Shown here piece by piece: positions 33,815-42,370 of a stretch of DNA of 64,000 nt. Numbering within the stretch: the stretch's first letter is position 1; each line of letters begins with the position of its first letter. Position numbers and translations under genes: made by a program. The notes under the pieces are model-generated. The model was given only the letters and a program-made list of their open reading frames with translations. It ran no database searches and was not told the DNA's origin. Source of the stretch: Asanoa siamensis (lineage in GTDB: Bacteria; Actinomycetota; Actinomycetes; Mycobacteriales; Micromonosporaceae); assembly GCF_016862555.1 (NCBI RefSeq), contig NZ_BONE01000050.1:1-64000 (forward strand), in the 5' to 3' direction.

Positions 33815-34486
33815 CTACCCAGGAAAGCGAACGGTCCTCGCGGCGCCGTGCATGTCGTGCGGCAGGTCCGCGTACGCCCACTGGTGCGCGCGGGCGTGCA
33901 GGCAGGCCGCCTCGACGTCGCCGGCCGCCAGGACACCCAACAGATCCTCGTGCTCGTCCGCCACGTGGTCCAGCGCCGGCTTCGTCAGCGCCAGCGTGAT
34001 CGCCGTCCGGGCCTCGATCTGCAGGCCCTCCCAGGCCCGTTCGAGCAGGAAGTTCTCGGCGGCCAGCACCACCCGGCGGTGGAACCGCGCGCTGGCCAGG
34101 CCCATGGCCCGGGCGTCGTCGGCGGCCGCGCACCGGCGCATCTCCGCGACGTCGGTGCGCATCGCGTCGAGGGGGAGACGCCGGTTGAGCATCGCCAGGC
34201 GGGTCGCCGCCTCTTCCAGCGCCGCCCGCACGACGTACGCCTCGCGGATGGTCTGTTCGACGAACGGCAGCACGTGTCGCCCGCGGCGCGGCCGGCTCTC
34301 GACCAGGCCGAGGCCCTCGAGCTCGCGCAACGCCTCGCGTACCGGTGCCTGGCTCGTGCCGAAGTCCGCCGCGATCCGGGTCTCGATCAGCCGCTCACCG
34401 GCCTTGATCTCGCCCGACACGATCAGTTCGACCAGGCCGTCCCGGATGCTCTCGCTGAGGGTCGGCTTCGTCTTGTTGACCAACAT
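33815..34486 (-). CDS. FadR/FCD-type GntR regulator of the molybdenum-hydroxylase operon
   Basis: A 223-aa protein: winged helix (about 10-75, GERLIETRIAADFGTSQAPV then REALRELEGLGLVESRP) and an FCD effector domain (about 85-210) with the metal-site pattern FHRRVVLAAEN and DEHEDLLGVLAAGD. FCD regulators mostly repress catabolic operons and respond to an organic acid or related ligand. It is divergent from the hydroxylase operon, with two palindromes in the 48-bp region between the starts. ATG 34486 lies 2 nt before the first palindrome arm, so self-repression is likely. Confidence 0.9.
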   Translation of the reverse strand: MLVNKTKPTLSESIRDGLVELIVSGEIKAGERLIETRIAADFGTSQAPVREALRELEGLGLVESRPRRGRHVLPFVEQTIREAYVVRAALEEAATRLAMLNRRLPLDAMRTDVAEMRRCAAADDARAMGLASARFHRRVVLAAENFLLERAWEGLQIEARTAITLALTKPALDHVADEHEDLLGVLAAGDVEAACLHARAHQWAYADLPHDMHGAARTVRFPG

Positions 34487-34523
34487 GTGAACGACCGTAT
34501 ACGTTCATTATCGATATCGATAA
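34487..34523. promoter_or_regulatory. Double palindromic operator of the hydroxylase operon
   Basis: TGAACG (34488-34493) and CGTTCA (34502-34507) form an inverted repeat around GTATAC (34497-34502), matching the T-GTATAC-A type of FCD-GntR operators. Directly beside it lies the perfect 16-bp palindrome TTATCGATATCGATAA (34508-34523), which overlaps the purine-rich run before the first gene. Confidence 0.7.
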
Positions 34524-34534
34524 AGGGGGCCCAC

Positions 34535-35323
34535 ATGCTGACCGAGGTACATGTCCCCGACGACGTCGACGCCGCGGTGCGCCTGGTCAGCTCGGGTGCC
34601 CGGGCTCTGGGCGGTGGCACGAGCCTGATGCCGTGGCTCAACGACTACGCGTCGCCGCCGACCGAGCTGGTCAGCCTGCGCCGCGCGGGCCTGGCCCGGA
34701 TCGACGTCGCGGGGGAGGCGGTGACGATCGGTGCGGCGACCACGTTGGCGCAGGTCGAGCAGGACGAACGCCTCGAGATCCTGAACCCGGTCGTACGCTC
34801 GATCGCGTCGGTGCCGGTCCGCAACCTCGCGACCGTCGGCGGAAACCTGTTCGCCCGCCAGCCGCACGGCGACCTGGCCGTCGCGCTCGTCGCCCTCGAC
34901 GCGCGGGTCACGCTCGTCGGCGCCGACGGCTCCCGCGAGCTGCCGGCGGGCGACGACCTGCCGCCGTTCATCGTCACGCGGGTCGCCTTCGCACTGCCGG
35001 CCGCCGGCACCTTTAGGTACGTGAAGGCGGCCCGCCGCCGCTGGAACTCCGCCTCCATCGTCACCGTCGCCGCGGTCGTCACCGAGTCCGACGGCGTCGT
35101 GACGGCCGCGCGGGTCGCCCTCGGGGGCGTCGGCCCGCGGGTGGTCCGGGCGCACGCCGTCGAGGCGGCGCTCGTCGGCGGCCCGCTGACCGAGCAGGCG
35201 ATCGGTGTGGCGGCCGAGGCCGGCCGCAGCGAGCTCGCGCCGGCCGACGACGCCTACGCCTCCGCCTGGTACCGCGCCCGCGTCTTTCCCGTCCACCTCC
35301 GCCGCGCGTTGCTCGGCCGCTGA
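34535..35323 (+). CDS. Molybdenum hydroxylase FAD-binding (medium) subunit
   Basis: A 262-aa protein of the CoxM/xanthine dehydrogenase FAD-subunit family: ARALGGGTSLMPWL near the start, VPVRNLATVGGNLFARQPHG (FAD pyrophosphate-binding TVGGN type), and a C-terminal CO_deh_flav_C part (RWNSASIVTVAAVVTESDG, RVALGGVGPRVVRA). It passes electrons from the iron-sulfur subunit to an external acceptor. ATG 34535 follows AGGGGG. First gene of an eight-gene operon controlled by the divergent FCD regulator. About 20 residues shorter than CoxM. Confidence 0.9.
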   Translation: MLTEVHVPDDVDAAVRLVSSGARALGGGTSLMPWLNDYASPPTELVSLRRAGLARIDVAGEAVTIGAATTLAQVEQDERLEILNPVVRSIASVPVRNLATVGGNLFARQPHGDLAVALVALDARVTLVGADGSRELPAGDDLPPFIVTRVAFALPAAGTFRYVKAARRRWNSASIVTVAAVVTESDGVVTAARVALGGVGPRVVRAHAVEAALVGGPLTEQAIGVAAEAGRSELAPADDAYASAWYRARVFPVHLRRALLGR

Positions 35324-35334
35324 CAGGAGCCCCG

Positions 35335-35841
35335 ATGTCGGTGAAGATCGTCAATCTCAAGGTCAACGGCGTCGACAAGGCGTTCATGGCCAGACCTGAG
35401 ACGACCCTGCTGCTGGCGCTGCGGGAGCAGCTCGGCCTGATGGGTGCCAAGCGCGGCTGCGCGCAGGGCGCCTGCGGCTCGTGCACCGTGCTGCTCGACG
35501 GCGCCCCGGTGGTCTCCTGCCTCGTGCCGGCGGCCACTGTGGACGGCGGCGACGTGGCCACCGTCGAAGGCCTCGCCGACGGCCGGCGCCTGAGTGACGT
35601 CCAGCAGGCGTTCATCGACGGCTTCGCGACCCAGTGCGGATTCTGCACGCCCGGCATGATCATGTCGGCCGAGGCGCTGCTGGCCCGCAACCCCGACCCC
35701 ACGGCCGACGAGGTCAATGAGGCGATCAGCGGCAACGTCTGCCGGTGCACCGGCTACGCGCCGATCGTCAGCGCGATCCTCGACGCCGCGCAGCGACGCC
35801 GCGAGCGCGCGGAAGGCGCAGACCAGGAGGCCACGCTCTGA
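35335..35841 (+). CDS. Molybdenum hydroxylase [2Fe-2S] (small) subunit
   Basis: A 168-aa protein with the two [2Fe-2S] clusters: plant-ferredoxin type (GCAQGACGSCTVLLDG, residues about 43-58 plus a later Cys) and the four-helix type (CGFCTPGMIMS and CRCTGY). Carries electrons from the molybdenum site to FAD. It starts 11 nt after the FAD-subunit gene. Its stop overlaps the next start by one base (TGATG). Confidence 0.92.
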   Translation: MSVKIVNLKVNGVDKAFMARPETTLLLALREQLGLMGAKRGCAQGACGSCTVLLDGAPVVSCLVPAATVDGGDVATVEGLADGRRLSDVQQAFIDGFATQCGFCTPGMIMSAEALLARNPDPTADEVNEAISGNVCRCTGYAPIVSAILDAAQRRRERAEGADQEATL

Positions 35842-37229
35842 TGCCACGCGTCAACCCGATCGATTCCTCGTTCTTCAAGGACGAGCGCGGCCCCGGCGAC
35901 TTCACTGTGATCGGCAAGACGGTGCCGCGGTCCGACGCGCTCGGCCACGTCACCGGTCGCACGCAGTTCTTCGAGGACCGGACGTTCCCGGACCTGGCCC
36001 ACCTCAAGATCCACCGGTCGCCGCACCACCACGCGCTGATCGACAGCGTCGACACCTCCGAGGCGCTCCGCGTGCCCGGCGTGCTGCGGGTCCTGACCCA
36101 CGAGGACGTTCCGGCCAACTGGTACGGCGTGCTGCGGCTGATCGGCATCGGGCCCGACGACGAGGTGGTGCTGGCCGAGGACCGGGTCATCTACAGGGGC
36201 GAGCCGATCGTCGCCGTGGTCGCCGACTCGGAGGCGGCGGCGCTCGAGGGCGCCAGCAAGGTGAAGGTCAGCTACACCGTGCTCCCGGCCGTGCTCGACG
36301 TCGAGGAGGCGATGTCGCCGGACGCCCCGGTCATCAAGAAGGCGGGCACCAACTACTTCGTGTACGAGGGCCACCACGCGCGCCGGATCCGGTTCGGCGA
36401 CGTCGAGGCGGGGTTCGCGCAGGCGGACCACGTCTTCGAGTGGCGCTACAGTTCCGCGCCGATCGAGCACGCGCCGACCGAGACCACCGGCTGCATCGTC
36501 GAGCCGAAGCCCGACGGGCGGCTGCTCATCCACAGCAACACGCAGGCGGCGTTCTTCACGCTCGACAACACCGCCCTGATCATCAACCGGGCGCCGACGG
36601 ACCTGCAGGTCAAGGGCGGCACCGTCGGCGGCGGGTTCGGCGGCAAGGTCGACGTGATGGTCGAGCCGCTCGCCTGCATCGCGGCCACGCTGACCAACCG
36701 TCCCGTGAAGTTCGTCTACACGCGCGAGGAGGAGATGCAGGTCTCGTCGCCCCGGGCGGCGGAGCGCATCTACATCAAGGACGGCGTGATGAACGACGGC
36801 CGGATCGTGGCGCGCAAGATCATGCTCTATGTGGACGCCGGCGCGTACGCGCGGCACTCGCCCTACGGCGCGACCAAGGCGGCGGCGCACCTGCCCGGCC
36901 CGTACACGATCCCCAACGTCTATGCCGACTGTCACTGCGTCTACACCAACCGGACGCCGTCGAGCGCCATGCGCGGTTTCGGCGTCACCATCGCCGACTT
37001 CGCCATCGAGTCGCAGATGGACCGGGTGGCGCGGGCGCTGGGGATGGACCCGCTGCAGTTCCGGCTCGTCAACGCCTACCGCGACGGTGACATGAAGGCC
37101 CACCGCAAGGAGGCCTCCGGCACCGCGCTGATCGAGGTCATCCAGCGGGCCGCCGCGCTCGTCGGGCACGACCTGCCGGCGGAATACCAGGCCATGTCGT
37201 CCTCGACCCCGAGAGGAGCCATCGCATGA
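35841..37229 (+). CDS. Molybdenum hydroxylase large subunit, N-terminal part (split)
   Basis: A 462-aa protein covering the a/b hammerhead domain (about 20-130, GKTVPRSDALGHVTGRTQFF) and the first molybdopterin-binding domain: GGTVGGGFGGKVDVMVEP, the RGFG loop (SAMRGFGVTIADFAIE) and FVYTREEEM. The usual single large subunit is about 780 aa; here the frame ends after the first MoCoBD domain and the rest is a separate gene that overlaps by 4 nt (ATGA). The CO-dehydrogenase active-site cysteine loop is absent (SSAMRGFG instead), so it is not a CO dehydrogenase. The split matches the layout known from Eubacterium barkeri nicotinate dehydrogenase (NdhL/NdhM). Confidence 0.85.
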   Translation: MPRVNPIDSSFFKDERGPGDFTVIGKTVPRSDALGHVTGRTQFFEDRTFPDLAHLKIHRSPHHHALIDSVDTSEALRVPGVLRVLTHEDVPANWYGVLRLIGIGPDDEVVLAEDRVIYRGEPIVAVVADSEAAALEGASKVKVSYTVLPAVLDVEEAMSPDAPVIKKAGTNYFVYEGHHARRIRFGDVEAGFAQADHVFEWRYSSAPIEHAPTETTGCIVEPKPDGRLLIHSNTQAAFFTLDNTALIINRAPTDLQVKGGTVGGGFGGKVDVMVEPLACIAATLTNRPVKFVYTREEEMQVSSPRAAERIYIKDGVMNDGRIVARKIMLYVDAGAYARHSPYGATKAAAHLPGPYTIPNVYADCHCVYTNRTPSSAMRGFGVTIADFAIESQMDRVARALGMDPLQFRLVNAYRDGDMKAHRKEASGTALIEVIQRAAALVGHDLPAEYQAMSSSTPRGAIA

Positions 37230-38236
37230 CGCTGCTGCACGGCCGAGGCTTCGCTTCCGTCAACTACCCCACGGGCATGAACCTCGGCGGCGACCCGTCG
37301 CAGGCGCTGGTCCACGCGACGACGATGGGCGGCTTCGTGGTCAGCCTGTCCTCCGTGGACCTCGGGCAGGGCCTCAAGACCGTGGTCGCCCAGTGCGCCG
37401 CGGAGACGCTGGGCATCCCGATGGAGAACGTCATCGTCGACACCGCCGACACCGACACCGGGCCGCACTGCATGGGCACGTTCGCGAGCCGCGGCACGCA
37501 CCGCGTCGGCAACGCCGTCATCATGGCCGCCCGCGAGGCGCGCGAGGTGATGCTCCAGGTGGCGGCGGACGAGCTCGAGGTCGACGCCGGTGACCTGGAG
37601 ACCGACGGCACGGGCTACGTCGCGGTGAAGGGTGCGGCCGCGAAGCGGATCCACATCTCGGACATCGCCCTGGCGGCGCACTTCAAGCAGGGGAAGACCA
37701 TCTCGGGGCGGGGCATCTTCCTCAAGGAACGGTCATACCCCGTGCCGGAGACCGGCGAGATGGACCCGGACTCCTGCCAGGCCCACGCCTGCACGGTGGC
37801 CGAGGTGGAGGTCGACGACGAGACCGGCGTGGTCACCGTCCTGCGGCTCTACAACACCTACGAGATCGGCCGGGCGCTGAACCCCGCGATGGTCGCGCAG
37901 CAGGTCGAGGGCGGCGCGTGGATGGGCGTCTCGCACGCCATCTTCGAGTCGACCGAGCCCTACTACCCGGCGTCGCGGGAGCACGGACCGGTGGACTTCT
38001 CGGAATACCTCATGCCGGGGCCGGGCGAGAGTCCCGAGCAGACCAGCGTGATCCTGGAGCGGCCGGCGTCCAACGGGCCGTTCGGCGCCAAGGGCATCGG
38101 CGAGATGACCGCGAACGCCCCGATCCCGGCGATCGCGAACGCGATCTTCGACGCCTGCGGCGTACGGCTGGCGACGATGCCCTTCACGCCGGAGTCCGTC
38201 CTGCGTGGACTGGACGCACTGCGCGATGCTGCCTGA
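37226..38236 (+). CDS. Molybdenum hydroxylase large subunit, C-terminal part (split)
   Basis: A 336-aa protein with the second molybdopterin-binding domain: VDLGQGLKTVVAQCAAETLG, FASRGTHRVGNAV, VVTVLRLYNTYEIGRALNP and FGAKGIGEMTANAPIPAIAN; the Glu of GIGE is the catalytic base of the family. It has its own ATG (37226) within the ATGA overlap, so the two halves are made in equal amounts. The domain boundary is clean, which points to a functional split rather than a frameshift. The catalysed reaction is hydroxylation of a C-H next to a ring nitrogen or carbonyl, with oxygen from water. Confidence 0.85.
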   Translation: MTLLHGRGFASVNYPTGMNLGGDPSQALVHATTMGGFVVSLSSVDLGQGLKTVVAQCAAETLGIPMENVIVDTADTDTGPHCMGTFASRGTHRVGNAVIMAAREAREVMLQVAADELEVDAGDLETDGTGYVAVKGAAAKRIHISDIALAAHFKQGKTISGRGIFLKERSYPVPETGEMDPDSCQAHACTVAEVEVDDETGVVTVLRLYNTYEIGRALNPAMVAQQVEGGAWMGVSHAIFESTEPYYPASREHGPVDFSEYLMPGPGESPEQTSVILERPASNGPFGAKGIGEMTANAPIPAIANAIFDACGVRLATMPFTPESVLRGLDALRDAA

Positions 38237-39092
38237 GCACGCGACCCTGCGGCGGCAGCTCGAGGAGCACCGGTACTTCGCCGACCAGGGCCTGCTGACC
38301 GCGATCCGGCTGTCGATCGCGCTGCGGCGGCCGCTGCTGCTCGAGGGCGAGCCGGGCGTGGGCAAGACCCAGGTCGCGCACGTCCTGGCCGCCGCGCTGG
38401 AACGCGAGCTGATCCGGGTGCAGTGCTACGAGGGCATCGACGCGTCGCAGGTGCTCTACGAGTGGGACTACCTCAAGCAGCTGCTGCGCCTGCGGACGGC
38501 CGAGGCCGAAGGCCACACGGTCGGCAACCTGTACGCGGACGAGTTCCTGCTCGAACGGCCCCTGCTGCGCGCCTTGCGCAGCGCGACCGGCTCCGTGCTG
38601 CTGATCGACGAGATCGACCGGGCCGACAGCGAGTTCGAGGCGTTCCTGCTGGAGTTCCTCGACGGCTTCCAGATCACGATCCCGGAGGTCGGCACGATCG
38701 GCGCCACGGTGCCGCCGCTCGTGGTGCTCACCTCCAACCGCACGCGCGAGCTGCACGACGCGCTCAAGCGGCGCTGTCTCTACCACTGGATCCCGTTCCC
38801 GGACGCCGAGCGTGAGCGGGCGATCGTCGAGGCCCAGGCGCCCGGGCTCAGCGCCCGCGCCGCGGCCCGGCTGGTCGCGTCGGTCAACGTCATCCGGTCG
38901 CTGGGACCGACGAAGCGGCCCGGCATCGCCGAGTCCATCGCCTGGGCGCAGGGGTCGCTGGCCCTCGCCGACGAGGGCACCGAATGGTCGCAGGCGCTGC
39001 GGGCGTCGCTCGGGCTCGTGCTCAAGTCCGAAGAGGACGGTGCGCTCGTCGCGGCGCACGCGAGCGAGGTCTTCGGTGCCGACGACCGTTGA
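38226..39092 (+). CDS. MoxR-type AAA ATPase (CoxD-like)
   Basis: A 288-aa AAA+ protein: Walker A GEPGVGKTQVAH, Walker B LLIDEIDRAD, sensor TSNRTRELHDALKRRC. CoxD-like ATPases are known to help insert sulfur or finish the active site of CO dehydrogenase. ATG 38226 overlaps the large-subunit gene by 11 nt, so it is tied to its expression. The next gene, a CoxE-like VWA protein, is the usual partner. Confidence 0.9.
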   Translation: MLPEHATLRRQLEEHRYFADQGLLTAIRLSIALRRPLLLEGEPGVGKTQVAHVLAAALERELIRVQCYEGIDASQVLYEWDYLKQLLRLRTAEAEGHTVGNLYADEFLLERPLLRALRSATGSVLLIDEIDRADSEFEAFLLEFLDGFQITIPEVGTIGATVPPLVVLTSNRTRELHDALKRRCLYHWIPFPDAERERAIVEAQAPGLSARAAARLVASVNVIRSLGPTKRPGIAESIAWAQGSLALADEGTEWSQALRASLGLVLKSEEDGALVAAHASEVFGADDR

Positions 39093-40236
39093 GCCGCCGC
39101 TCGTCGCGCGTACGCGAGAGCACCTGTTCGGGTTCCTGCGGGGGTTGCACACGGCCGGCCTGCGCGTCCCGGCCGACAAACAGGGGGCGTTCTTCGCCGG
39201 CATCGACACGCTGGCGCCGGCGACGACCGGTCAGCTCTACTGGATCGGCGCCGCGACGCTGCCGGCGTCGGAGCCCGACCAGCGCGTCTACGACGAGGTG
39301 TTCCGGCGGTTCTTCGGGGTGCCCGAGGACGGGCTGGTGGTCACGGAGGACGTGCCTGCCCCGAACGGCGACGAGGACGAGCCCACCGCGATGCCCGGCT
39401 CCCGCGACACCGACGAGGCGCTCCTCGACCAGGCCGGCGCTGACGGGCTCGCGGCGAGCGGGCTCAGCCCCGACGGTGTCAAGCGGTTCGCACCGACCGC
39501 GCCGCACGCGCACGGGACGCTGGCGGAGATCCGCCGCGAGCTGCCCCGGGCCGTGCCACCGACCCGGTCCCGACGGCGCCGACCCGGTGGCCGGCGCGAG
39601 GAACTCGACCTGCGCGCGATCTACCTCGCCTCCCGGCACACCTACGGCGAGATCACCCGGCTGCGCTGGCGGCACCGGCCGGCCCGCGAGCGGCGGGTGC
39701 TGCTGCTCGTCGACGTCTCCGGGTCGATGAAGCAGCACAGCCCCGACTACCTGCGCTTCGCCCACGCCGTCGTGGCGACCTGCCAGCGGGCCGAGGTCTT
39801 CACATTCGGCACGCGGCTCACCCGCGTCACCCCGGCGCTGCGCGCGTCCGATGTGGACGCGGCGCTGGCGTCGCTGGCCGAGGTCGTGCTGGACGCCGAC
39901 GGCGGCACGCTGATCGGGCCGAGCCTGGCGGAGTTCCTCGGCAACGCCCACCACGCGGCGATGGCCCGCGGTGCCCTCGTGGTCGTGCTCTCCGACGGGC
40001 TGGAACGCGGCGACTGCACGGCGATGGTGGCCGCCACCCGCCGGCTCTCGCTGCTGGCGCACCGGCTGTGCTGGTGGTCGCCGCTGGCCTGCGACCCGTC
40101 GTACCGCCCGGTGACCCGCGGCATGTCGGCGGTGCTCGGCCACCTCGACGCCCTCACCGGGGTCCGCGACCTCGACACCGCCCTCGCCGCGCTGCGCGCG
40201 AAGTTCACCTCTAGGAGAGACCATGTACTCCGGTGA
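39076..40236 (+). CDS. VWA-domain protein, CoxE-like
   Basis: A 386-aa protein with the metal-ion-dependent adhesion site DVSGSMKQHS at about residue 212, GGTLIGPSLAEFL (MIDAS threonine) and VVVLSDGLERGD. The first 180 residues are family-typical, with RRELDLRAIYLASRHTYGEI-like text before the VWA fold. CoxE proteins pair with CoxD ATPases as chaperones for molybdenum hydroxylases. GTG 39076 overlaps the ATPase gene by 17 nt. The 3' end overlaps the amidohydrolase start by 14 nt. Confidence 0.88.
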   Translation: MPTTVEPPLVARTREHLFGFLRGLHTAGLRVPADKQGAFFAGIDTLAPATTGQLYWIGAATLPASEPDQRVYDEVFRRFFGVPEDGLVVTEDVPAPNGDEDEPTAMPGSRDTDEALLDQAGADGLAASGLSPDGVKRFAPTAPHAHGTLAEIRRELPRAVPPTRSRRRRPGGRREELDLRAIYLASRHTYGEITRLRWRHRPARERRVLLLVDVSGSMKQHSPDYLRFAHAVVATCQRAEVFTFGTRLTRVTPALRASDVDAALASLAEVVLDADGGTLIGPSLAEFLGNAHHAAMARGALVVVLSDGLERGDCTAMVAATRRLSLLAHRLCWWSPLACDPSYRPVTRGMSAVLGHLDALTGVRDLDTALAALRAKFTSRRDHVLR

Positions 40237-41137
40237 CATCGTCGACTGCCACCACCACGTCTGGCGGCAGGCCGACATGCCGTGGCTGTCCGGGCCGATG
40301 GTCCCGCGCATCTTCGGCCCGTACGAGCCGATCCGGCGCGACTACCTCGTCGAGGAGTACATCCGCGACGCCACGTCGGCCGGCATCGGGGCGTCGGTGT
40401 ACGTGCAGCCGAACTGGCCGCTGGACAAGGTCGTCGACGAGGTGCGCTGGGTCGCCGGCCTGCACGCCCGCACCGGCTGGCCGATGGCCGTGGTGGGCTG
40501 CGCCGACCTGTTCGCGCAGGACGCCGTCGAGGTCATGCGGACCCAGCAGCGGATCAGCCCGCTCGTCGTGGGCACCCGGCTGCAGCTCCACTGGCACGAG
40601 CGCCCCGAGTTCCGGTTCGCCGACGGCCCGGACCGCATGAAGGATCCCGTCTTCCGCCGTAACATCGCCGCCCTGGCCGACCTGGGCTGGCTGTTCGAGC
40701 TCCAGGTCTTCGCCCCGCAGATGCACGACGCCGCCGCGCTGGTCGCGGAGCACCCCGACGTGACCTTCGTGCTGGTGCACGCCGGGATGCTCACGGACCA
40801 CACCGACCCGGCGACCGTCGCGCAGTGGCAGGCCGGCATGCGCGAGCTGGCCGCCCTGCCGAACGTGGTCGTCAAGCTGACCGGCCAGGGCACGTTCGTG
40901 CACCGCGTGGACCCGGACCTGCTCCGCTTCGTCGCGGACGAGGTCCTCGACGAGTTCGGCGCGACGCGCGCGATGTTCGGCACCAACCTGCCCGTCGAGA
41001 CACTGTGGACGAACGCGGCGGAGCTGACCGACGCGTGGCGGGTCGCGGTCAGCCACCGCACCGCCGACGAGCAGGCCGACGTGTTCTCCCGCACAGCCCG
41101 CCGGGTCTACGGATTCGGCGAAACCAACGAAAGGTGA
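40223..41137 (+). CDS. Amidohydrolase-2 family metal-dependent hydrolase
   Basis: A 304-aa TIM-barrel protein: metal motif DCHHHVWRQADMPWL near the start, VQPNWPLDKVVDEVRWV, VLVHAGM and the end FGTNLPVETL. The family includes 2-pyrone-4,6-dicarboxylate lactonase (LigI) and lactone or amide hydrolases. ATG 40223 follows AGGAGAG. Place in operon: it probably opens the ring or hydrolyses the lactam/lactone made by the hydroxylase. The exact substrate is unknown. Confidence 0.82.
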   Translation: MYSGDIVDCHHHVWRQADMPWLSGPMVPRIFGPYEPIRRDYLVEEYIRDATSAGIGASVYVQPNWPLDKVVDEVRWVAGLHARTGWPMAVVGCADLFAQDAVEVMRTQQRISPLVVGTRLQLHWHERPEFRFADGPDRMKDPVFRRNIAALADLGWLFELQVFAPQMHDAAALVAEHPDVTFVLVHAGMLTDHTDPATVAQWQAGMRELAALPNVVVKLTGQGTFVHRVDPDLLRFVADEVLDEFGATRAMFGTNLPVETLWTNAAELTDAWRVAVSHRTADEQADVFSRTARRVYGFGETNER

Positions 41138-41144
41138 CACCCCG

Positions 41145-41417
41145 ATGGCCCACTTCCTCCTCACGTACGGCTACAACGACACCCCGCTGCGCGCGGAGCG
41201 CCGCCCGGACCACCTGGCGCACCTCGACAAGCTGAAGGCGGACGGCTCGCTCGTGCTGGCGGGGCCCCTCGCCGACCTCAGCGGCGGCGTCATCGTGCTG
41301 TCCGCCGCCGACCTGGGGGCCGCGCAGGCGCTCGTCGACCAGGACCCGTACACGCAGCTCGACGTGACCAGGGACCGCAAGCTCCAGGAATGGAAGATCA
41401 CGGTCGGCCTCTCCTGA
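41145..41417 (+). CDS. YciI-family protein
   Basis: A 90-aa ferredoxin-like-fold protein: FLLTYGYNDTP, RRPDHLAHLDKLKADGSLVL and AGPLADLSGGVIVL with the family His (DHLAH) and Asp. YciI proteins resemble muconolactone isomerase and some act as dehalogenases or isomerases in ring catabolism. It starts 7 nt after the amidohydrolase gene and is followed at once by a hairpin, so it closes the operon. Confidence 0.85.
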   Translation: MAHFLLTYGYNDTPLRAERRPDHLAHLDKLKADGSLVLAGPLADLSGGVIVLSAADLGAAQALVDQDPYTQLDVTRDRKLQEWKITVGLS

Positions 41418-41424
41418 CGACCGC

Positions 41425-41459
41425 GGCGAAGGGCCAGGCCCGCGGGCCGGCCCTTCGCC
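41425..41459 (+). terminator. Terminator of the molybdenum-hydroxylase operon
   Basis: GGCGAAGGGCC (41425-41435) pairs perfectly with 41449-41459; the loop contains the palindrome GGCCCGCGGGCC. It begins 7 nt after the last stop. Confidence 0.8.
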
Positions 41460-41470
41460 CCGGCGCCGCT

Positions 41471-42370
41471 ATGGTGGTCGATGTGTTGCGCAGGGATCTG
41501 GTCGACCGCTGGCGGGTCGGTGTCGGCTGGGAGACCGCGCAGGAGGTCTTTCGGCGGCTGGGTGACGGCTCGTCCCTCGCCGACCTCGGACTGCCCACCG
41601 TGGACGGGCGACTCGACCTGCGTGGCCTCCCCGCCGGCGGCCTCGACGCCCGCGACGCGCGGGTCGACGGCGTCGATCTCAGCTACGGCTGCCTGTCCTC
41701 GGCCCACCTGTGGAACGTGCACTTCCGCGACTGCCGGTTCGACCACGTCGACGCCTCCCGGGCCGTGTTCTCCGGTGGCTCCGTCGTCGGGTCGAGCCTG
41801 GCGCGGGCCGACCTGCGGGACGCGATCGTCGCCGACGCCGGCTGGTCGTCGATCGACCTGTCGCGGGCGAAGACCAGGCGCCTCACCGGCCAGCACAGCA
41901 CGTTCACCGAGGTCACGTTCGGGGCCCTGGCCAAGGTCGACTTCACCGGCTGCGCCTTCGTGGACTGCCGGTTCACCGGCGCCCTGAACGAGGCGCGGTT
42001 CCTCGGCCGCGGCCGGGCGGGGGAGCACCCGCCCGTCGTCCTGCGGCGCGTCACGTTCGAGTCGAGCGACTTCCGCTACGCGGAGTTCGACGGCATGGAC
42101 TTCGACGACGTCACGTTCCCGGCCGACGACGCGCTGATCGTCGTGCTCGCGCGGTTCCGGGCGGTGGCCGACCGGGCCGGCGCCGACTCCTTGCCCCGCC
42201 GCGACGAGGTCGGCAAGGCGCTGCGGCGGTTGCTCTCCGAGCAGTCGCTGCGACCGGGACTGAGCGAGACCGCAGGTTGGGTCATCGCCCGCCGCGACCT
42301 GAACGACGAGCCGGACCTCGCCGACTTCGCCGCCACGACCCTCGCCGCGGCGGCGCGCCAGCTTTCCTAG
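41471..42370 (+). CDS. Pentapeptide-repeat protein
   Basis: A 299-aa protein. About residues 45-210 form pentapeptide repeats (A-D/N-L-x-x type): LDLRGLPAGGLDARDARVDG, VDLSYGCLSSAHLWNVHF, SSLARADLRDAIVADA, FTEVTFGALAKVDFTGCAFV, SDFRYAEFDGMDFDDVTF. These build a right-handed beta helix. Some members mimic DNA and block gyrase, others have unknown roles. ATG 41471 follows no strong ribosome site. Stop codon shares CTAG with the convergent gene. Confidence 0.85.
   Translation: MVVDVLRRDLVDRWRVGVGWETAQEVFRRLGDGSSLADLGLPTVDGRLDLRGLPAGGLDARDARVDGVDLSYGCLSSAHLWNVHFRDCRFDHVDASRAVFSGGSVVGSSLARADLRDAIVADAGWSSIDLSRAKTRRLTGQHSTFTEVTFGALAKVDFTGCAFVDCRFTGALNEARFLGRGRAGEHPPVVLRRVTFESSDFRYAEFDGMDFDDVTFPADDALIVVLARFRAVADRAGADSLPRRDEVGKALRRLLSEQSLRPGLSETAGWVIARRDLNDEPDLADFAATTLAAAARQLS

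Follow-up and report, generated by a model that had tools for sequence, protein, structure and literature searches.

What does an operon do that places a molybdenum hydroxylase with a divided large subunit beside maturation-type proteins and an amidohydrolase-fold protein? The question is raised by positions 34535-41417 of a 64,000-nucleotide (nt) stretch of the Asanoa siamensis genome (contig NZ_BONE01000050.1, positions 1 to 64,000, hereafter the window; contig C50 in our search of the 8.78-Mb genome, which comprises 219 contigs). Eight genes of the + strand overlap or nearly abut one another there: F and S (FAD-binding and iron-sulfur subunits), L and M (the two halves of the molybdenum subunit), D and E (putative maturation proteins), A (amidohydrolase fold) and Y (a small protein). 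This is the eight-gene operon around a split molybdenum hydroxylase that the original prediction described, and all eight genes are present with a clear Pfam family each. From sequence comparison and modelling we consider it probable that the operon is a self-contained catabolic module, in which molybdenum-dependent hydroxylation of a heterocycle would be followed by hydrolytic ring opening. The strongest new facts are the exchangeable nature of the small protein and an Asn-type variant of the amidohydrolase barrel; a dedicated predicted operator is also new.

The hydroxylase genes themselves were assigned with ease. F (34535-35323, + strand, 262 aa) matches FAD_binding_5 (1.1e-29) and CO_deh_flav_C (2.1e-21), and the [2Fe-2S] subunit S (35335-35841, +, 168 aa) matches Fer2_2 (2.9e-32) and Fer2 (4.8e-09); as expected from the first description, the FAD and FeS subunits are genes of their own. 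L (35841-37229, +, 462 aa) carries the hammerhead domain (Ald_Xan_dh_C) and MoCoBD_1 (6e-72), and M (37226-38236, +, 336 aa) carries MoCoBD_2 (1.4e-57). The Pfam matches above cut-offs for FAD, both 2Fe-2S domains and the MoCo-binding domains make up the set typical of the xanthine oxidase family. The reported division into 462 and 336 aa is exact: it falls between MoCoBD_1 and MoCoBD_2, with a 4-nt overlap (ATGA).

Relatives of M were collected as 258 stretches, with one genome per species, and the best 80 by score (69-93% identity) were kept and all examined, a choice that gives most weight to close relatives. L and M are separate genes in 80/80 of them. Relative to L, M lies in the same frame in 27 cases, in the +1 frame in 20 and in the +2 frame in 33; since the frame differs in 53 of the 80, no single frameshift explains the split, and a sequencing frameshift as its source is excluded by the uniformly split relatives and the occurrence of all three relative frames. 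The L/M split is real and old.

Some individual loci showed local irregularities in these genes. The L frame is longer in Yoonia (L081 10154-12001, 615 aa) and Shinella (L083 10362-11999, 545 aa) and has additional C-terminal sequence ahead of M. On plasmid pEMPC1 of Sinorhizobium sp. BG8 (L084 10631-11997) L is divided over two frames and looks like a broken or mis-sequenced gene. In the Yoonia locus S, which carries no gene annotation there, likewise matches as two pieces that differ in frame (L081 9673-10148). An in-frame TGA was found within the M gene of a relative from the genus of the window (L094, G396:C1:5278423-5279421).

The last gene of the operon, Y (41145-41417, +), encodes a YciI-family protein (YCII, 1e-14), which the original prediction had treated as a fixed component. 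This did not hold. Among the 68 of the 80 loci with a complete operon (both F and A detected, and sequence available beyond each end), only 25 contain YciI, while the others carry EthD (28), SRPBCC (7) or ABM (6), or none of these (2; L030 and L069). Exactly one protein of the four families is thus present per operon in 66/68 cases, and two together occur in none, a new observation to be read with the fact that the families were picked after seeing the loci and the search seeds were taken from the loci that were counted. In lineages without YciI the position of the gene varies as well: EthD is encoded between M and D, ABM after A, and SRPBCC before F. The 12 incomplete relatives, which are outside this count, include seven with EthD and five in which no small protein was seen. 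A quick tree of 79 rows required no fewer than 8 label changes in all (singly: EthD 6, SRPBCC 3, YciI 2, ABM 1); the SRPBCC label of Salinigranum rubrum (L082) in it depends on a match of 34%. EthD, YciI and ABM proteins share the dimeric alpha-beta barrel fold and SRPBCC proteins do not. The pattern, which was not a planned result, suggests that the four families may serve a common step, perhaps the isomerisation or protection of the hydroxylated product.

The second new feature concerns A (40223-41137, +, 304 aa), a COG3618-type protein with a strong match to Amidohydro_2 (PF04909; 5.1e-34, 118.8 bits, passing the curated cut-off of 26.4). Its predicted structure (pLDDT 93.5) is best matched by the L-fucono-1,5-lactonase 4dlf (E 7.7e-21, TM 0.82 by query length), with 6uvz and two putative 2-pyrone-4,6-dicarboxylate hydrolases next; decarboxylases and LigI-type hydrolases are intermingled from rank 9 downwards. 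Against the NCBIfam model for L-fucono-1,5-lactonase A scored 104.7 bits (cut-off 400). Members of the amidohydrolase superfamily use an Asp, placed where strand 8 ends, as base and metal ligand. A shares the fold and the HxH motif with L-fucono-1,5-lactonase (COG3618) and the 2-pyrone-4,6-dicarboxylate hydrolases, but has Asn255 at the strand-8 position. This Asn was found in 69/69 aligned rows (the window plus 68 relatives; of the 70 in which A was matched, two short ones were set aside), together with H186 in all 69 and the strand-1 residues D8, H10 and H12 in 68, the only row lacking the latter being L022, in which the gene call has a shortened start. Among nine other Amidohydro_2 proteins of the same genome (L107-L111 and L113-L116, with L117 left out), six have Asp in a motif that could be read and two gave no motif; the ninth, L115, has an in-frame stop and gave a doubtful match with Asn. 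The substitution is not unique to the A family, as Asn is also present in a 36%-identical Ruegeria protein and in the solved 6uvz.

An invariant Asn, set against the Asp of most paralogs examined, raises the prospect that A is not a hydrolase at all: the barrel would be a decarboxylase, lyase, isomerase or binding protein, and the ring would be opened elsewhere. The fold matches of Amidohydro_2 decarboxylases, which are about equal in quality to those of LigI-type lactonases, point the same way, and the molybdenum part of the catabolic reading would be unaffected. We nevertheless regard this as somewhat unlikely, given the retention of D8, H10, H12 and H186, the lead of the lactonase 4dlf over other fold matches by many orders of E-value, the Asn in solved 6uvz, and the hydrolase-type family that takes the place of A in two distant loci, L082 and L098.

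These distant loci also provide the main clues to the pathway (some neighbour-gene names were read by eye, others taken from Pfam or record annotation). A fusion of SMP-30 (SGL) and isochorismatase domains is encoded directly behind A in Shinella (L083 15924-17489) and one gene further from A in Yoonia (L081 16823-18418). In genome G118 (L098, M 50% identical) SMP-30 and isochorismatase are separate genes, accompanied by FAH and an EthD match. A PF04199 cyclase adjoins M in L098 and in the Salinigranum locus L082 (59% alike between the two), and in neither locus was A found at E 1e-3. In genome G175 (L099, M 47%) an SMP-30 match lies about 9 kb from M, and D, E and XdhC are matched on the opposite strand. 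Of the 68 complete operons, 7 have FAH nearby, 3 another FAH-like gene and 7 XdhC; none has a PF04199 cyclase in its vicinity. The genome of the window itself contains an FAH homolog (59% identity, on C33), whereas the SMP-30-isochorismatase fusion gave partial matches only, the best of which (43%) lies where a contig ends and covers a portion of the SMP-30 domain. As a side observation, the split hydroxylase genes of the L082 plasmid stand behind ABC transporter genes and before the PF04199 cyclase and an SRPBCC gene, and no MoxR- or VWA-type gene adjoins them.

Enzymes that open lactones, lactams and amides are thus a repeated theme of the distant loci, and these neighbourhoods fit a hydroxylation of the ring with subsequent hydrolysis. 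The first description had gone further and spoken of a complete hydroxylate-then-hydrolyse route. The SMP-30, isochorismatase, PF04199 cyclase, AHL-lactonase-type and FAH genes of distant relatives favour such a route; the word complete cannot be retained, in view of the Asn for Asp in every A protein aligned. In the lumichrome catabolic cluster reported for Nocardioides simplex (PMC12746152), a xanthine-oxidase-type step and a pyrone hydrolase are likewise combined, together with P450, Rieske and extradiol dioxygenase functions that the eight genes of the present operon lack.

The same neighbourhoods could be read in terms of sugars, with the molybdenum enzyme acting as an aldose or aldehyde dehydrogenase that converts a cyclic hemiacetal to a lactone, A or SMP-30 opening the latter, and FAH being a sugar-acid dehydratase or hydrolase. 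The FAH-type genes, the ribose-type ABC transporter genes after A in L021 and L056 (names read by eye) and the affinity of A to L-fucono-1,5-lactonase are in keeping with this. In NCBIfam the best models for F and S are those of archaeal glyceraldehyde dehydrogenase, but their scores (130.9 and 177.7 bits) are far below the cut-offs (350 and 290), and the other half of the enzyme points elsewhere: L is best matched by xanthine dehydrogenase (264.4 bits, cut-off 780) and M by 4-hydroxybenzoyl-CoA reductase, and both are closest to nicotinate dehydrogenase (NDH) among solved structures. None of the subunits reached a named-enzyme cut-off in NCBIfam, a weak test as the models expect an unsplit subunit, that for xanthine dehydrogenase included. 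Isochorismatase and PF04199 cyclase in distant relatives suit a nitrogen ring better, and a sugar-type route is in our view unlikely.

The layout of the enzyme had been compared with the four-subunit NDH of Eubacterium barkeri, and its structure (3hrd) is indeed the best solved relative of both halves (L to 3hrd_A, 2.2e-66; M to 3hrd_B, 9.5e-45). Residues 20-438 of L align to 4-412 of the large chain (34.6% identity over 408 positions) and residues 5-329 of M to 4-325 of the medium chain (33.2% over 322), so that the two enzymes are divided at the same place. Q235, R378 and F380 of L pair with Q208, R351 and F353 of NDH, and Y14 and E293 of M with Y13 and E289; Q208, F353, Y13 and E289 we take to be part of the NDH active site. 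Across the window and 86 relatives these residues are retained almost without exception (Q235 85/87, R378 86/87, F380 86/87, Y14 87/87, E293 87/87), the misses at Q235, R378 and F380 being gaps or an X, and E293 is the catalytic Glu of the GxGE motif in all 87 aligned M proteins. Active-site residues of this kind are mostly general to the xanthine oxidase family. In a tree of 30 joined L+M rows the split family formed one clade of 22 rows with support of 100/100, while NDH joined another row, own_C30, on long branches (support 84/63); the tree does not make NDH and the split family sisters with confidence. The shared split of the earlier comparison stands, and the residues are shared as well; for a kinship with NDH beyond these the tree gives no firm support. 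NDH also has separate FAD and 2Fe-2S chains, operon partners unlike those described here, and selenium at its molybdenum. That the operon encodes a strict nicotinate (or isonicotinate or picolinate) dehydrogenase feeding a known pyridine pathway, as the nearest solved enzyme with the same four-subunit split and active-site residues might suggest, is improbable, considering the identity of only 34.6% and 33.2%, the lack of a firm common branch, the family-wide nature of most of those residues and the absence of any nicotinate follow-on gene known to us among the eight. Taken by sequence, F-S-L-M would best be described as a xanthine-oxidase-family hydroxylase of NDH layout, situated in a conserved and probably self-regulated catabolic module.

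A CO dehydrogenase is ruled out by motif: the copper-site motif CSFR occurs in 0/80 L proteins, in which AMRGFG is universal (80/80). The two genes that follow M are nevertheless of the types known from CO dehydrogenase operons. D (38226-39092, +) is a MoxR/CoxD-type AAA+ ATPase (AAA_5, 7.4e-16), proposed to be a maturation chaperone, and scored 252.8 bits against the NCBIfam MadB family, below the cut-off of 475; its partner E (39040-40236, +; start uncertain, possibly GTG 39040) is a CoxE-type VWA protein (VWA_CoxE, 3.4e-46). According to two reports on Oligotropha carboxidovorans (PMC3471820, PMC4240915), coxDEF lies directly downstream of coxMSL, CoxD acts in sulfuration of the molybdenum site independently of CoxE and CoxF, and the latter two are needed for copper, the enzyme of a coxE mutant containing sulfur and no copper. 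The order of molybdenum hydroxylase genes followed by CoxD-like and CoxE-like genes is therefore common to the present operon and to coxMSLDEFG, from which the operon differs in lacking CSFR and a CoxF-like gene, in its split large subunit and in the added amidohydrolase and small protein. As no CoxF-like gene was detected among the eight genes by Pfam and CSFR is missing, the more likely role of D is sulfuration. Two CoxD paralogs, 52-53% identical to D, were also noted within about 4 kb of fused molybdenum hydroxylase genes on C14 and C88 of the same genome.

To the left of F, a GntR-family regulator gene with an FCD ligand domain, R (33815-34486, - strand; Pfam GntR 5.9e-15, FCD 3.3e-14), is transcribed divergently. 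A perfect palindrome of 16 bases, TTATCGATATCGATAA (34508-34523), lies eleven bases before the start codon of F and is our candidate operator. With up to 2 mismatches TTATCGATATCGATAA was found at one site in the 8.78-Mb genome (reversed control 0), and this single occurrence speaks against a wider regulon of R. R was matched in 67/80 relatives, of which two gave weak matches (29% and 36%) on the opposite strand; in 64 relatives R is divergent within 600 nt of F. The core TATCGATA occurs in 56/64 of these R-F intergenic stretches, whereas 200 Markov resamplings gave 0.37 on average and never more than 3. Because the predicted operator is present once in the genome and its core in 56/64 intergenic stretches, R is likely a dedicated switch of the operon, and a count of eight genes very probably understates the unit, to which R and the operator would also belong. 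By the strict rule of the promoter scan there was no sigma-70-type promoter before F.

A search for the same arrangement in other genomes was successful: the order F-S-L-M-D-E-A with divergent R is kept from Asanoa to Mesorhizobium. Matches to F and S were found in 79 of the 80 relatives each, to D in 73, to A in 70 and to E in 67, which bears out the predicted association of a split hydroxylase with CoxD/CoxE-like genes and an amidohydrolase. The closest named relatives are Asanoa species (M 93% identical), and members include Actinomycetota (Solirubrobacter among them), Thermomicrobiales and Alphaproteobacteria; F-S-L-M is also present on a plasmid of the haloarchaeon Salinigranum rubrum (L082). 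With the genome of the window counted in each case, M was found in 6/6 genomes of the genus (E limit 1e-80), 14/200 of the family (1e-60), 4/394 of the class (1e-60) and 3/396 of the phylum (1e-80), at most 5 or 10 candidates per genome being scored in the family, class and phylum draws. Two of the three phylum-draw members are distant (G118, locus L098, and G175, locus L099) and both lack A. The layout had been called rare in actinomycetes, which these counts bear out in part. In a plasmid collection M was detected at 62-86% identity in five records, the remainder lying below about 37%, a gap that the two distant genomes of the phylum (50% and 47%) bridge. The operon is thus rare per genome and patchy, yet widely spread. 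No description of it was found in the open-licence literature searched, which is no proof that none is in print.

Drawing on these observations, a plausible mechanism of hydroxylation and ring opening can be outlined. F-S-L-M would hydroxylate a small, probably carboxylated heterocycle at the carbon beside the ring heteroatom, giving a lactam or lactone; in enzymes of this type electrons pass from molybdenum through two [2Fe-2S] clusters to FAD. D and E would help to finish the molybdenum site, most likely by its sulfuration, as judged from CoxD, the share of E being less clear. The small protein (YciI here; EthD, ABM or SRPBCC elsewhere) may handle an unstable hydroxylation product, for example by isomerising it, and A, with its lactonase fold and Asn-containing site, would open the ring by hydrolysis. 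Only some lineages carry, next to the module, genes that would serve later hydrolysis and C-C cleavage (SMP-30, isochorismatase, FAH). R would bind the palindrome in front of F and repress the operon, a pathway acid acting as the signal for its release.

Several observations weigh against this outline. A lacks the Asp used by COG3618 lactonases and may hydrolyse nothing. SMP-30 and isochorismatase are near 0/68 complete operons of the close relatives, and the FAH-type genes near 10/68, with the few sugar-type transporters, also fit sugar-acid chemistry. An exchange of A for the cyclase rests on two loci, because L099 is without either and L082 has another annotated amidohydrolase gene some 5-7 kb before F. 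D and E had no match in 4/68 complete operons and are hence not strictly needed; neither was found in the stretch covered for L098, and in L082 the only hit was a weak one to D, encoded on the opposite strand and distant from M. Inspection of these loci preceded the choice of the four small families, no member of which occurs in 2/68 operons. Finally, in Oligotropha the coxE mutant enzyme kept its sulfur without copper, which speaks against a sulfuration role for E (PMC3471820).

A bolder version of the catabolic reading, which we put forward tentatively and would not back at even chances, is that of an undescribed, horizontally spread module for a common but unrecognised heterocycle, in which the Asn-type barrel would cleave the ring by a mechanism foreign to known COG3618 lactonases, and in which the little-understood EthD, YciI, ABM and SRPBCC proteins would have replaced one another time and again in a nearly obligatory step and would thus share a reaction. 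YciI, EthD and ABM proteins abound, and for most of them no reaction has been assigned. As the operon nearly always places exactly one such protein behind a known enzyme class, a shared role becomes testable. The operon is likewise a starting point for studying CoxD/CoxE-like pairs apart from CO dehydrogenase, and for tracing an as yet unmapped breakdown of a ring compound by soil bacteria.

The right-hand border of the operon was also inspected. The terminator scan gave no terminator after Y, and the pentapeptide-repeat gene that follows was rejected as a ninth member, as it had no tblastn match (E 1e-6) in the 80 loci. This gene (41390-42370) encodes a pentapeptide-repeat protein, and its reading frame overlaps the end of Y.

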